A stretch of 64,000 nucleotides of DNA from Pseudomonas sp. (GTDB lineage: Bacteria; Pseudomonadota; Gammaproteobacteria; Pseudomonadales; Pseudomonadaceae), in the NCBI RefSeq assembly GCF_030698175.1, contig NZ_JAUYNT010000039.1:29647-93646 (forward strand). Direction: 5' to 3'. Positions 16,674-53,789 of the stretch are shown one piece after another. The translations under genes were made by a program, and so were the position numbers. Each line of letters opens with the position of its first letter. The stretch's first letter is position 1. Under the pieces are notes generated by a model that had not been told where the DNA came from, did not search any database, and saw only the letters and a list, made by a program, of their open reading frames with translations.

Positions 16674-16855
16674 TCCTCCCTGGTGTGTGCGCCAGTTGGC
16701 GATGTCCCTGAGCCGATTCGCACAACCCCGGGGGTTGCACGTTGAGGTCGGTGTGCATGTCCGCTTGACGGAAAGCCTTAACGCCTCCTGCAACCTCCAC
16801 CTTGAACTTTCGGGTTCAAGGGCCAAGCCGGCAGCGGCACTCCGGGGAGTCATAT
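16674..16855 (+). ncRNA. ssrS: 6S RNA
   Basis: Pseudomonas-type 6S sequence CTCCCTGGTGTGTGCGCCAGTTGGCGATGTCCCTGAGCCGA...CGGTGTGCATGTCCGCTTGACGGAAAGCCTTAA...CCACCTTGAACTTTCGGGTTCAAGGGCCAAGCCGGCAGCGGCACTCCGGGGAG; between zapA and fau. Ends approximate. Confidence 0.92.
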
Positions 16856-22224: not shown

Positions 22225-23334
22225 ATGCAGCGTCTGGCGCATATTTTCCGCCTCGGCCTGAAAGAACTCACCAGCCTGCGCCACGACAGCGTGCTGCTGC
22301 TGTTTCTGCTGTATGCCTTCAGCGTCGCCATCTATATGCCGGCCAAGGGCTCGATCATGGGCGTGCACAACGCCAGCGTGGCGATAGTCGATGAAGACCG
22401 CAGCGCGCTGTCGCGCAAACTGACCGACGCCCTGCTGCCACCGGAGTTCCAGGCGCCGCAGCCGCTCAGCTACGCGCAAATGGACAACGCCCTGGACAGC
22501 GCCCAGTACACCTTCGTACTCAACGTGCCGCCGAACTTCCAGAGCGACCTGTTGGCCGGGCGCCAGCCCCAGGTGCAATTGAATGTCGACGCCACCGCCA
22601 TGAGCCAGGCCTTTATGGGCGCCGGCTATCTGGCACGGATCTTCCAGCGCGAACTCAGCGACTACAGCGGGCAAACGCCGCAAAGCCCAATCGGCATGAC
22701 CACCCGCGCGCTGTTCAATCCCAATCTGGAGGGCGGCTGGTTCCTGGCGGTGATCCAGATCGTCAACAACATCACCATCCTCGCCATCATCCTCACCGGC
22801 ACAGCTCTGCTGCGCGAACGCGAGCACGGCACCCTCGACCACCTGCTGGTGCTGCCGCTGACGGCGCTGGAGATCATGCTGGCGAAGATCTGGAGCAACG
22901 CCCTGGTGGTGGTGCTGTGCACTTGGGTGTCGCTGGAGCTGGTGGTGAAATGGCTGATCGGCGTGCCGCTGTCCGGGCCACAGCCGATGTTTCTCGCGGT
23001 GACTGCGCTGTACCTGTTCGCCAGCACGGCGCTGGGGATCTTTCTCGCCACCCTGGCGCGCTCGATCCCGCAGTTCGGCCTGCTGAGCATCCCGGTGATC
23101 ATCCCGATGCTGCTGCTGTCGGGCGGCACCACGCCGCTGGACAGCATGCCGGTCTGGTTGCAATGGGTGATGCAGATCTCGCCCTCGACCCACTTTGTCA
23201 GCCTGTCCCAGGCGATCCTGTTCCGCGATGCCGGCCTGGCGCTGATCTGGCCCGAGCTGCTGGCGCTGACGACCATCGGCTTAGTGTTTTTTGCCGTCGC
23301 ACTGGCGCGCTTTCGCAAAAGCCTGGCGGCCTGA
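22225..23334 (+). CDS. ABC-2 type transporter permease (YhhJ-like)
   Basis: MQRLAHIFRLGLKELTSLRHDSVLLLFLLYAFSVAIYMPAKG...; REREHGTLDHLLVLPLTALEIMLAKIWSNALVV. Confidence 0.9.
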   Translation: MQRLAHIFRLGLKELTSLRHDSVLLLFLLYAFSVAIYMPAKGSIMGVHNASVAIVDEDRSALSRKLTDALLPPEFQAPQPLSYAQMDNALDSAQYTFVLNVPPNFQSDLLAGRQPQVQLNVDATAMSQAFMGAGYLARIFQRELSDYSGQTPQSPIGMTTRALFNPNLEGGWFLAVIQIVNNITILAIILTGTALLREREHGTLDHLLVLPLTALEIMLAKIWSNALVVVLCTWVSLELVVKWLIGVPLSGPQPMFLAVTALYLFASTALGIFLATLARSIPQFGLLSIPVIIPMLLLSGGTTPLDSMPVWLQWVMQISPSTHFVSLSQAILFRDAGLALIWPELLALTTIGLVFFAVALARFRKSLAA

Positions 23335-23352: not shown

Positions 23353-23471
23353 TCTGAAAGCGTAGCGAGCGAAGGTTAGGCTAGGCGGCGGAGCTGGGAA
23401 AAAGCGGAGTTGGCTGGTGCCAATGAGCATTTTTCCCAGCTCCGCCAACGCCGCATAAACGAGCGCAGCAG
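23353..23471 (+). repeat. Long-hairpin intergenic repeat, copy 1 (conserved flanks, 17-bp perfect stem 23387-23403/23430-23446, inner hairpin 23409-23424)
   Basis: Flanks match 51803-51920 on the opposite strand; stem read directly. Confidence 0.8.
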
Positions 23472-23476
23472 CTTTC

Positions 23477-23902
23477 CTATTGCAGGATCAGATTGTTGAA
23501 CAGCAGGTCTTCCACATAGGGCTTGCCCTCTTCCTGCTCCAACACCTGCTTAACCTGCTTAAGCGCTTCTTGGCGGAGTTTTTCCTTGGCATCCATGCTG
23601 CCGAGGGTTTCGTCGGTCTGCTGGGAAAACAGCATCACCAGCTGATTACGAATCAGCGGTTCATGGTATTTGACCTTCTCCTCGGCCTCGCTGCCAGTCA
23701 CTTTGAGCGAGATGTCGGCCTTGTAAAACTTCATCTTCATGCCCGAGCTGTAGTTGCCCACCAGCGCCGGCACTATGCCGACATAGATGATTTTCGGCGC
23801 GGCGTTTTCGCCCTCGGCTTCTTCTTTTTTCTCTTGAGCCAGTGCCGACAATGGCAGAGACAGGGCCAGCAACAGCGTGAGCAAAACTTTCACAGAGGTC
23901 AT
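23477..23902 (-). CDS. FliL-like flagellar basal body-associated protein
   Basis: MTSVKVLLTLLLALSLPLSALAQEKKEE...VKYHEPLIRNQLVMLFSQQTDETLGSMDAKEKLRQEALKQVKQVLEQEEGKPYVEDLLFNNLILQ FliL-type C-terminus. Confidence 0.85.
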   Translation of the reverse strand: MTSVKVLLTLLLALSLPLSALAQEKKEEAEGENAAPKIIYVGIVPALVGNYSSGMKMKFYKADISLKVTGSEAEEKVKYHEPLIRNQLVMLFSQQTDETLGSMDAKEKLRQEALKQVKQVLEQEEGKPYVEDLLFNNLILQ

Positions 23903-29133: not shown

Positions 29134-29334
29134 AGGAATGACGTATTCATGAAAGAGGGAGGTAAGCACTTGGCTTAAGAGGCCGCGTCGCGAGAAAGGC
29201 GACAGGATCACTGCACTTATTCGGTGAACTTGGATGAATAAGAATGGAGTGGCGACGGCTGGTAGAGGGCAACGGAGAAACCGTTGCGAGCCGAATGTAA
29301 CACCGGCTTTTCGAGGCGTCTAGCCTCAAGCGTA

Positions 29335-50011: not shown

Positions 50012-50782
50012 TTAGGGCGCGGGCGCGGGTTGTGCCCGCAACGCCGCCAACAACGCCGTGGCACTCGCGCCACGGCAATCCAGCACAATCTCGGCGCCCG
50101 CCGCACGGGCTTGTTCGGCCACCCGCGCACTGGGCACAAACAACGGCAACCGGGCCACCTGCGACCAAGCCGCGCCGGCCAGTTGCAACAGGTGGGCAAA
50201 GCCTTCACCGCTGCTGACAGAGATACCATTCAGGCGCTGCGCAGTTAACTGCTCAATCAGTAGCGTCGGCGGATAAGCCGGCAGGCTACGGCGATAGAGT
50301 TGCAGATAGTCGACCGTCACGCCTTGGCCGCGCAAGCGTTCGGCGATGAATTCGCGGCCACCCTCGCCGCGCATAATCAACACCCGCGGACTGTGGACTG
50401 TCAGCGCCACGCTCAGTTCCGGCATGGCCAGCAACGCCTCACTGGCATCGCCCTGGGCGGGATACTTTGCGCTGAGGCCGTGCTCTTGAAGAATTTGTGC
50501 GCTGGCCGCGCCGACCGCGAACCAGCTGGGGGTCAGCGGTGGCTGTGACCAATAGCGATCCAGCAAGGCCAGACCCAGGCGCGCGGCCGGTTTGCTGACC
50601 ACTATCACCGCGCAATAACGATCCAGATCCAGGATCAGCGCGCGTTGTTCGGCGCTGTCAGCCAGCGCTTCAATCTGTAGCAGCGGCAGGCTGTAACTGA
50701 ACACACCCTGCGCGGCCAAAGTAGCGGCTAGCTGCGCCGACTCAGCAGCCGGGCGGGTCAGCAGCAGCCGCCAGGCTGTCAC
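50012..50782 (-). CDS. hemD: Uroporphyrinogen-III synthase
   Basis: [40 protein letters not shown]; between hemC and hemX. Confidence 0.94.
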
Positions 50783-51720
50783 TCTTGACCGGCCTCGCCA
50801 TACACGGCGGCCAGGATATCGGCCGCACCCTGCGCCAGTAGCGCTTCGGCGACCTGCACACCCAGCGCCTCGGCATCCGTGCTAGCCGCCCGTGCCTCGG
50901 CGCGCAGCAACTGACTGCCATTCGGCTGACCGACCAGGCCGCGAAGCCACAACTGTTCACCTTCCAGCAACGCATAACAGGCAATCGGCACTTGGCAGCC
51001 GCCGTTCAGATGCTTATTCAACGCCCGCTCGGCCGTGACCCGCAACGCGGTTTCGCGGTGGTGCAGTGGCGCCAACAGGGCATGAATCTCCAAGTCCGCG
51101 CTGCGGCATTCGATGCCGACCGCGCCTTGGCCACCGGCGGGCAGACTGGCTTCGACACTGATCGAGGCGCGAATCCGCGCGGCAAAACCGAGGCGAATCA
51201 AGCCGGCGGCAGCGAGGATAATGGCGTCGTACTCACCGGCATCCAGCTTGGCCAGGCGGGTGTTGACGTTACCGCGCAGGAAGTGGATTTTCAGGTCCGG
51301 CCGCAGCGCCAATAGCTGCGCCTGACGACGCAAGCTGGAGGTGCCGACCACGCTGCCGGCAGGCAACTCAGCAAGGCTGGCGAAGGTATTGGAGACGAAG
51401 GCATCGCGCGGATCTTCCCGCTCGCAGATGCAATACAGGCCCAGTCCTGCGGGGAAATCCATCGGCACATCCTTCATCGAATGCACGGCGATGTCGGCCT
51501 CATTCTCCAGCAGGGCGGTTTCCAGCTCTTTGACGAACAGCCCCTTACCGCCGATTTTCGACAAGGGCGCGTCGAGCAGTTTGTCGCCGCGACTGACCAT
51601 CGGCACCAGGCTGACGCTCAGCCCCGGGTGCGCCTGCTCGAGACTGGCCTTAACGAATTCTGCCTGCCAGAGGGCGAGGGCACTTTTGCGGGTGGCGATG
51701 CGGATTTCGCGGATGGACAT
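50779..51720 (-). CDS. hemC: Porphobilinogen deaminase (hydroxymethylbilane synthase)
   Basis: [67 protein letters not shown]. Confidence 0.97.
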
Positions 51721-51802
51721 GACGGCTCTCAAAACGAATGAACGCCAGCATGATAAGGCAGCCCGGCGGGTGGTGCACCCACCGCGACCGGCTGGGTGAA
51801 AA

Positions 51803-51920
51803 CTACTGCGCTCGGTTATGCGGCGTTAAAAACAGGCTCAAAATGCTCATTTACAACTCGTAAACTGCGCTTTTTCGCCTGTTTTTGCCTTGCCTAACCT
51901 TCGCTCGTTACGTTTTCAGG
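51803..51920 (-). repeat. Long-hairpin intergenic repeat, copy 2 (same flanks as 23353-23471, unrelated stem)
   Basis: Stem AAAAACAGGC (51828-51837)/GCCTGTTTTT (51877-51886); inner hairpin 51849-51865; flank alignment with copy 1. Confidence 0.8.
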
Positions 51921-51960
51921 CCGCCTACTTAAAGGACGCTGAAAAAACCGCAGGCTTGGA

Positions 51961-52707
51961 TCAGAGGTGATTCATCAACTTGCGCACGCCCGCCACATGC
52001 CGGCGGCTGACGATCAGCGGGTCGCCATTCAGGCCGCGTAAAAACAGCTGAAAGTGCCCCAGCGGCGTACGTTGCAGGCGCTCGATGCGCTCGCGGGCGA
52101 CCAAGGCATTGCGATGGATACGCACGAAGCGGTCACCAAATTCGTCTTCCAGGGATTTTAGCGGCTCATCCAGCAACACCTCGCCCCCTTCATGGCGCAG
52201 GGTCACGTACTTGTGATCGGCGATGAAGAAGATCACATGCTCCAGCGGAATCAACTCGATGCCCTTGCGGGTGCGCGCACTGATATGGCTGCGCGGGGCG
52301 CCGCTGTGATCGAGCGCCGGCCGGGTTAGCGCCGCCAGCTGCACGCGATTGGGCCGTTCGGCTTTTTTCAATGCCTCGCTCAACGCCTCTGGGCGCACTG
52401 GTTTAACCAAATAACCCACTGCACTGACCTGAAACGCCTCGAGGGCAAATTCATCGTGGGCCGTGCAAAAAATTACCGCCGGTGGCGCCTCGCGCTCACA
52501 CAGCTTGGCCGCTACCTGCAAACCATCCAGGCCCGGCATGCGGATATCCAACAACACCACATCGGGTTTCAGGCTATCAATCAGCGCCAGGGCTTCCAGG
52601 CCATTGCTGGCACACGGTTGCAGCACACGGCAGCCATCCAGCTCGGCCACCATGCGGCTTAGTCGCTCGCGGGCCAGGGGCTCGTCATCAACGATCAGGA
52701 CATTCAT
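51961..52707 (-). CDS. algR: LytTR response regulator AlgR
   Basis: MNVLIVDDEPLARERLSRMVAELDGCRVLQPCASNGLEALALIDSLKPDVVLLDIRMPGLDG plus LytTR DNA-binding domain. Confidence 0.95.
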   Translation of the reverse strand: MNVLIVDDEPLARERLSRMVAELDGCRVLQPCASNGLEALALIDSLKPDVVLLDIRMPGLDGLQVAAKLCEREAPPAVIFCTAHDEFALEAFQVSAVGYLVKPVRPEALSEALKKAERPNRVQLAALTRPALDHSGAPRSHISARTRKGIELIPLEHVIFFIADHKYVTLRHEGGEVLLDEPLKSLEDEFGDRFVRIHRNALVARERIERLQRTPLGHFQLFLRGLNGDPLIVSRRHVAGVRKLMNHL

Positions 52708-53789
52708 ATAGCTCGGGCTTCCTGCGTGGGTCTCGCACAAGCATAGCGTAGACAAGTAAAGTGCCGTCCGTCACGCCGTTCCACACTAAGACTGGCACTT
52801 GGGCCAAAAAGTGCAGCCAGGCGTGCATCAATATTGGCTAATGCCTGATGAGTACCGCGCGAAGGCGGTGCCTCAACGGCAGCGTCATAGGGGCTACTGA
52901 CGCAGAGCCGGAACAGGCCATCGGTATATTCGGCCTCGATGGTCACCAAGCCGCCTTCGATGCGCGGCTGTATGCCATAGATCAAGGCGTTTTCCAGCAG
53001 CGGCTGCAAGGTCAACTGCGGGATCGGCAAATCTGCCGGCACGCTGTCCACCTGCCAATCCAACTGGAGCCGCTCGCCGAGGCGGTATTGCTCAATCGAC
53101 AGGTAGCGTTTGGACAGCTCCATCTCATCACTCCAGCTCACCAGATTGCCCGGCTTAGCCAAACTGGCGCGAAACAAATCGGACAAATCCAGCACCGCCT
53201 GCTCGGCTTTAAACGGGTCGATAGTCACCAGGCTGGCGATGCTATTGAGGCTATTAAACAAAAAATGCGGGCGAATCCGCGCCTGCAACGACTCCAACCG
53301 CGCGCGCAATTCGGCCTGTTGCTGACGCCGCCACTGACTCTGCAAATAAAAATAGCGCAGCAGCAAGGTCGACATAATCAAGCCAATCAAGCCATGGCGC
53401 AGGTACAGATTAACCTCGCCATCGCGCTGCAGCGGCCCGCCCAGCTGGTAGTAATCGGCCACCGCCGTGCAAGCCACGGTCAAACCCACCACCACTGCGC
53501 TGCAGTAAATACCCGCCAACCAGGCCGGCAAGCCGGCCAGCCAGGGGCGCAAGCGGCACAACAAGGCGGCGCTGAGCAGAACTATCCATTGCGCGAACAG
53601 CGAGGTCAGAGCCAGCCTGACCCAGTTAAAACCGGCCTGCATAGGTTCGGCCAGGACCAGCACCAGCACCAGCAGTTCGGCGAGCAACACCAAGACCAGC
53701 AACGCCTCCGGCAAGCACAGTTCCGGGAGGAAGAAGTCATCGTCGTTCGGCGCCGCCACGCGCCCTTTATTCAGCCAGTTAGTTTGCAT
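52704..53789 (-). CDS. algZ: LytS-type sensor histidine kinase AlgZ/FimS
   Basis: RPHFLFNSLNSIASLVTIDPFKAEQAVLDLSDLFRASL; 4-bp overlap with algR. Confidence 0.93.
   Translation of the reverse strand: MQTNWLNKGRVAAPNDDDFFLPELCLPEALLVLVLLAELLVLVLVLAEPMQAGFNWVRLALTSLFAQWIVLLSAALLCRLRPWLAGLPAWLAGIYCSAVVVGLTVACTAVADYYQLGGPLQRDGEVNLYLRHGLIGLIMSTLLLRYFYLQSQWRRQQQAELRARLESLQARIRPHFLFNSLNSIASLVTIDPFKAEQAVLDLSDLFRASLAKPGNLVSWSDEMELSKRYLSIEQYRLGERLQLDWQVDSVPADLPIPQLTLQPLLENALIYGIQPRIEGGLVTIEAEYTDGLFRLCVSSPYDAAVEAPPSRGTHQALANIDARLAALFGPSASLSVERRDGRHFTCLRYACARPTQEARAI

Follow-up and report, generated by a model that had tools for sequence, protein, structure and literature searches.

Two hairpin repeats in the 64,000-nucleotide stretch of Pseudomonas DNA analysed here (the window) belong to one widespread family, probably, if far from certainly, of non-autonomous mobile elements in which a core joined to exchangeable ends would be moved in trans and kept for its fold as single-stranded DNA. 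Copy 1 (23353-23471, + strand) and copy 2 (51803-51920, - strand) read as a sequence-only reading of the window had described them: common flanks around differing self-complementary stems are confirmed from the sequence, and copy 1 does lie between convergent genes, with an ABC permease gene ending at 23334 on one side and, on the other, a FliL-like gene that runs along the - strand to its stop at 23477. The relationship that it proposed between the copies stands; what it missed is that copy 2 represents a mobile class (class I) and copy 1 a class settled behind a stop codon (class II). In copy 1 the stem pairs perfectly over 17 bp, whereas in copy 2 a GA/GA internal loop separates stems of 10 and 4 bp. 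Because these architectures differ, we assign the copies to different classes of one family. The features are as follows.

23354..23476, + strand: copy 1, whole element of the settled class II type, from CTGAAAGC to GCTTTC (sequence; covariance-model match of 98.8 bits)
23387..23403, + strand: copy 1, left arm of the variable stem, GGCGGAGCTGGGAAAAA (sequence; folds)
23404..23428, + strand: copy 1, conserved inner hairpin GCGGAGTTGGC-TGGT-GCCAATGAGC (sequence; the motif recurs at orthologous sites)
23430..23446, + strand: copy 1, right arm of the variable stem, TTTTTCCCAGCTCCGCC (sequence; folds)
23477..23902, - strand: FliL-like gene, whose stop codon adjoins the right end of copy 1 (ORF; closest NCBIfam model FliL, E 7.6e-27, under the cut-off)
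22225..23334, + strand: ABC-2 type permease gene, ending 19 bp ahead of copy 1 (ORF; NCBIfam ABC permeases)
51791..51928, - strand: copy 2, whole element of the mobile class I type with degenerate type-a ends, boundaries approximate (sequence; covariance-model match of 129.6 bits, L008; empty site in relatives)
51877..51886, - strand: copy 2, left arm of helix P3, AAAAACAGGC (sequence; covariation)
51875..51876, - strand: copy 2, GA on the left side of the internal loop with tandem GA/GA (kept in 167/187 cores)
51845..51870, - strand: copy 2, conserved inner hairpin GCGCAGTTTAC-GAGTT-GTAAATGAGC (sequence; alignment)
51838..51839, - strand: copy 2, GA on the right side of the internal loop with tandem GA/GA (kept in 167/187 cores)
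51828..51837, - strand: copy 2, right arm of helix P3, GCCTGTTTTT (sequence; covariation)
51961..52755, - strand: ORF upstream of copy 2, algR-like (ORF; C-terminal residues)
50779..51732, - strand: ORF downstream of copy 2, hemC-like (ORF; N-terminal residues)

The first of the two ORFs beside copy 2 is presumably an algR-type gene for a LytTR response regulator, judged from C-terminal sequence alone, and the second we take to resemble hemC, from N-terminal sequence alone. In the whole window there are exactly two instances of each flank motif, GAGCGAAGGTTAGGCNAGGC and AACGCCGCATAANCGAGCGCAG (means of 0.05 and 0.00 in shuffled sequence). On the strand given by the sequence-only reading, folding stands out from dinucleotide-shuffled controls both as RNA (z -5.9 for copy 1, -4.0 for copy 2) and as DNA (z -5.5 and -4.9). 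Two ordinary known RNAs also lie in the window, namely 6S RNA at 16674-16852 (+) and a Pseudomon-Rho element at 29182-29295 (-).

The family extends well beyond the window. A scan of the genome, suggested when the repeats were first noticed, yielded not just two copies: a DNA search with copy 1 as the query returned 43 matching stretches, and queries with both copies together gave, by our own count, about 50 distinct places, some of them interrupted. Covariance-model matches were found in 211 of 250 sampled genomes of the genus, in 143 of 369 sampled genomes of the class (116 of 272 genera) and, at E<=1e-8, in 72 of 399 genomes of a phylum-wide sample, some of these outside the class. At least 10 copies per genome are common among the matches listed. 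Fifteen plasmid records, mostly from Pseudomonas, carry the element, and a search of phage records gave no match. A loop-pattern scan over 84,980 species genomes returned 93 stretches. More than 10 copies occur in a metagenome bin labelled Acidobacteriota (Md513_bin91; L271, L275, L281, L291, L316 and others), reflecting either horizontal spread or a misassigned bin. Other palindromic repeats (L147, L149, L164, L165, L168, L171) share just GGCAAGGC, GGTTTGG..CCAAATGAGC and AACGCAGC with the family, which suggests a wider superfamily. At L026 2097-2263, L073, L079, L080 and L081 another G+C-rich hairpin repeat, unrelated to this family and some 60-75 nt long, has been inserted into one or other arm of the stem.

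An alignment of 68 copies, which could be made without difficulty, defines a folded core of roughly 75-110 nt. Read on the + strand from the outside in, the left half runs through a terminal repeat, GTAGCGAGCG, helix P2, AGGCAAGGC, P3 (10 bp), GA, P4 (4 bp), GC, G[GC]AG and P6; after the P6 loop, the right half continues with TGA, GC, A, P4', GA, P3', AACGCNGCAT, P2', CGAGCGCAGTAG and the second terminal repeat. It is the unpaired motifs that are conserved and the helices that vary: P2 appears as GGTTA/TAACC, GGTCA/TGACC, CGGCTA/TAGCCG and others, and P6 as TTTAC/GTAAA, while a tandem GA opposite GA is kept in 167 of the 187 distinct cores, along with further mismatched or unpaired positions (GNAG/TGA, a bulged A and AAC). 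A short ORF from an inner ATG was considered and set aside, as judged by eye in the alignment; stops and stem changes break it in other copies.

A covariance model with a test of stem covariation had been proposed as the check on structural selection, and the stem does covary. On the structure, 93.1% of cells pair, as against 31-42% with slid partners, and 29 of the 36 pairs show double-sided changes. Using an R-scape-like test of our own, in which substitutions were re-dealt along a FastTree tree (a rough phylogenetic null, the trees being built from short and possibly recombining elements), six of the 36 pairs were significant over all column pairs: P2 16-97, P3 26-86, 30-82, 32-80 and 34-78, and P4 40-72. 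No column pair outside the structure was significant against the same null. Reconstruction on the 187 cores gave about 165 changes from one Watson-Crick pair to another. The suggestion of selection on structure is thereby supported, by a stem that covaries beyond the phylogenetic null over hundreds of copies and also at fixed orthologous sites.

Class I, of which copy 2 is an example, has the GA/GA loop and includes well-preserved copies with clear terminal repeats and target duplications; the ends of copy 2 itself are degenerate, with no clear target duplication. Elements of the family are 119-141 bp long and carry no transposase gene. Around the one core stand several types of end, namely CAGRCYGTGTGAAAAC (type a), CAGGCYGTTGAAAAA (type b), GGAAYCTCTGAAAAAG (type c), GGTTCTGTACGAAAAGT (type d), GGTACCTCTAAAAAC (type e) and rarer others. 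Perfect 4-bp target duplications flank 16 of 64 type-a copies and 36 of 88 type-b copies, and 34 of the 36 perfect type-b duplications read YTAR. At the site of copy 2, between the algR-like and hemC-like genes, comparison with relatives revealed the empty state: the interval measures 280 bp here and 157-179 bp in those congeners where both sides could be joined. This shows an insertion, and no more than that.

The ends point to candidate movers. In the same genome, type-a ends also flank a 1.6-kb element (G000:C30, from 49466) that encodes a 476-aa transposase of the IS1182 family (NF033551, E 1.7e-124). In a sister genome, complete IS1182-type elements occupy terminator-like hairpins whose 4-nt loop is duplicated (TGCG, CTGG), and type-a copies likewise sit in terminator loops with 4-bp duplications, such as CAAG in GGGAGC-CAAG-GCTCCC; the flanks of type-a copies pair beyond re-paired controls (p 0.0025). 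Hairpin and terminator targeting has been published for IS1272/TnSha1, an element of the IS1182 family (PMC4923244). Type-d ends match 0.9-kb IS5-family elements in relatives, flanked by CTAG, and a search of 10 genomes for an autonomous partner of the type-b ends found none. Similarity to these insertion sequences ends after the termini, so the core did not arise from them by internal deletion. There are also very short derivatives that have type-d ends but no core (L109, L113, L104 and L099, near the locus centre); in those at L109 and L113 the junction falls on CGAGCG/CGCTCGG, the direct repeat flanking the core, which looks like loss of the hairpin by slippage. Their existence implies that the core may be dispensable for movement.

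Class II was revealed when transposase genes were considered as constant neighbours of the core; that idea was rejected, for the flanking proteins cluster instead as orthologous host genes, many of the 93 loop-pattern stretches having orthologous flanks. Here the stem is continuous, the terminal repeats are weak and the right end often lies at a stop codon, with no clear target duplications, copy 1 included. The orthologous sites are few: the relA-mazG intergenic region and positions behind gabT, behind an FAD oxidase gene that neighbours serA and behind a gene adjacent to argE. There the element retains its flanks and the stem changes with compensation. At the relA site there are 24 distinct stems, with a mean of 5.8 of 17 positions differing between arms. 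Thus, one self-complementary stem can give way to another at a fixed site, no re-insertion being needed, and the 'swapped stem' of the window copies is better read as compensatory divergence between two classes than as a fresh swap.

A mobility mechanism that regenerates palindromes, offered earlier to account for the stems, is not supported: settled stems diverge by compensation, and conserved mismatches survive. The same observations bear on the idea that no structural selection exists and that repeated template switching inside the palindrome copies arm onto arm, creating the compensation. Template switching can perfect quasi-palindromes, and class II stems are indeed perfect and fast-varying. 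Copying one arm onto the other would, however, erase GA/GA, GNAG/TGA, the bulged A and AAC; many differences between orthologous stems are single pairs rather than tracts; and the process predicts no strand asymmetry, yet wobbles outnumber A-C mismatches. We therefore regard it as very improbable.

Several further observations concern settled palindromes. In several species of the genus the rplY-pth interval holds a fixed, diverged core, oriented in the sense of both genes (L154 1501-1560; also L153, L155-L163, L167 and L174), and tandem pairs of differing subtypes stand behind relA (L266 4400 and 4532; L282 2515 and 2645). Among relatives (L358, L362, L363, L364, L371, L380), the place of copy 1 at the FliL-like gene's 3' end is taken in one by another variant of the element and in several by REP-like palindromes, so that this gene end looks like a palindrome hot spot.

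Which strand folds can be judged from unequal mismatches. A change from G-C to G-T leaves a tolerable wobble on one strand and A-C on the other. Reconstructed wobble and A-C events numbered 68:21 in class I (p about 6e-7), some of whose copies were retrieved with a G-U-favouring structure model, and 25:9 in class II (p 0.009), which was mostly fetched by loop pattern and not by the structure model. By orthologous site, gabT, the serA-linked site and argE account for the excess, with relA balanced at 7:7. From this excess of about 3:1, the + strand appears to be the folding strand. All copies pooled show no orientation bias relative to genes, for which reason the classes were counted separately, with gene orientation taken from mechanical ORF calls: class I ends proximal to stops divide 25 to 30 between the two directions, and class I copies also lie between divergent genes, while in class II transcription of the stop-adjacent gene usually proceeds from the opposite strand (29 against 9, orthologous loci being non-independent).

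These counts argue against conservation on account of a role in termination or in the 3'-UTR. That the elements are retained as bidirectional transcription terminators, or as 3'-UTR hairpins acting on the mRNA ends of adjacent genes, would fit the placement of class II behind stop codons, the inner loop flanked by an A-tract, hairpin and T-tract, and the terminator-like site called within copy 1 at 23409-23424. Termination at the T-tract would nevertheless leave the outer arm untranscribed, yet the outer stem covaries; no terminator was called in copy 2; class I lacks orientation bias; and the gene adjacent to class II usually has its transcript on the strand opposite that with the wobble excess. 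We judge this explanation unlikely. Somewhat less unlikely, though still doubtful, is that the + strand acts as RNA, either as a dispersed small RNA or as an RNA element that binds protein and was spread by transposases. The strong covariation would suit it, as would the wobble excess on one strand and the tandem GA loops, which are typical of structured RNA, and there is the precedent of Coxiella MITEs that give small RNAs (PMC5896051). Against it stand the presence of class I in either orientation, even between divergent genes, the lack of any Rfam match at the element at gathering or relaxed thresholds, and the finding of no promoter-like site adjoining copy 1 or copy 2. The excess on the + strand, combined with the indifference of class I to direction, favours a single-stranded DNA hairpin, on which we infer that selection acts.

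By its defining features class I is a MITE, and its mobilisation in trans is predicted. Bacterial MITEs such as MITEPsy1 of P. syringae (PMC3189936) and MITEAba12 (PMC6382973) resemble the element in being about 100-140 bp long and gene-less, with terminal inverted repeats, short target duplications and a resident insertion sequence with matching ends. Indeed, MITEPsy1 has CTAG/YTAA targets and ends resembling type c; its p1448A-A copy, however, is without the core, and it was rejected as the same element. MITEAba12, QMITE1/2 and the Thiomargarita MITEs are set apart by their descriptions, as their ends, duplications or size differ. A single end type characterises each of these described MITEs, whereas here one covarying core occurs with several end types of different transposase families; this, together with a settled class at stop codons, distinguishes the family from MITEs in the descriptions consulted. 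Type-a copies share terminal bases and the preference for terminator hairpins with the IS1182 family (NF033551; IS1272/TnSha1, PMC4923244), but lack a transposase and have a core absent from the insertion sequence; furthermore, IS1272 deletes part of its target (PMC4923244), whereas type-a copies duplicate 4 bp. Type-d copies similarly share terminal bases and a CTAG/TA target with the IS5 family (NF033580), but contain no transposase, and the similarity ends after the termini. An internal-deletion (type I) MITE of one insertion sequence was rejected, as IS ends share just terminal bases with the element.

REP/REPIN sequences of Pseudomonas are likewise intergenic, palindromic and often placed right behind stop codons, and in several relatives the position after the FliL-like gene that corresponds to that of copy 1 holds, judged by eye, REP-like repeats. 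The element differs in being longer, with several conserved mismatched loops and terminal repeats, and in the target duplications of class I. The constant GTAG foot of REP/REPIN was not found: GTAG stands in columns 1-4 of A1 in part of the copies, and others have GTCA, GTCG, TCGC or further variants. Integron attC sites present RYYYAAC and then GTTRRRY; they were rejected, the order of boxes being reversed here (GTTAGGC first), the second box reading GCATAAC and both varying freely in other copies. R178 of P. fluorescens, a 101-bp repeat with inverted repeats of 11 bp inside it (PMC2718517), was compared by description and fits in size, genus and internal inverted repeat. Of the exact strings sought in 5.4 million open-access papers, one flank string gave no match and six others gave 41 papers, of which the 20 listed were unrelated by title. 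A check for an exact match to a named family, covering Rfam, the open-access literature and, by description, R178, found none; the family may nonetheless carry an earlier name.

Taken together, the explanation that we favour is that both copies belong to one family with a folded core bounded by exchangeable terminal inverted repeats. Class I may be moved in trans by the cut-and-paste transposases whose ends its copies carry, with the IS1182 family acting on type-a ends, the IS5 family on type-d and others on further end types, while class II copies keep their positions from species to species, immediately after stop codons. The core would be kept through folding as a single DNA strand and recognised in that form, a function that the covariation and strand asymmetry suggest; mutations would survive if compensated, so that the stem drifts to a new self-complementary sequence. 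It is tempting to speculate further that the hereditary unit is the folded core and not the ends: a strand-specific module of single-stranded DNA, recognised by protein, that changes transposase vehicles and has settled behind stop codons across Pseudomonadota. We put this forward only tentatively.

The usual view of MITEs is of remnants that retain the ends of a single parent and hold nothing of value between them. In many species, the fixed sites after relA, gabT and others show the same shape with very different stem sequences. The findings would permit the annotation of a repeat found in most sampled Pseudomonas genomes and, if true, a core kept by pairing and ends traded between transposase families would make MITEs modular, with an interior under selection.
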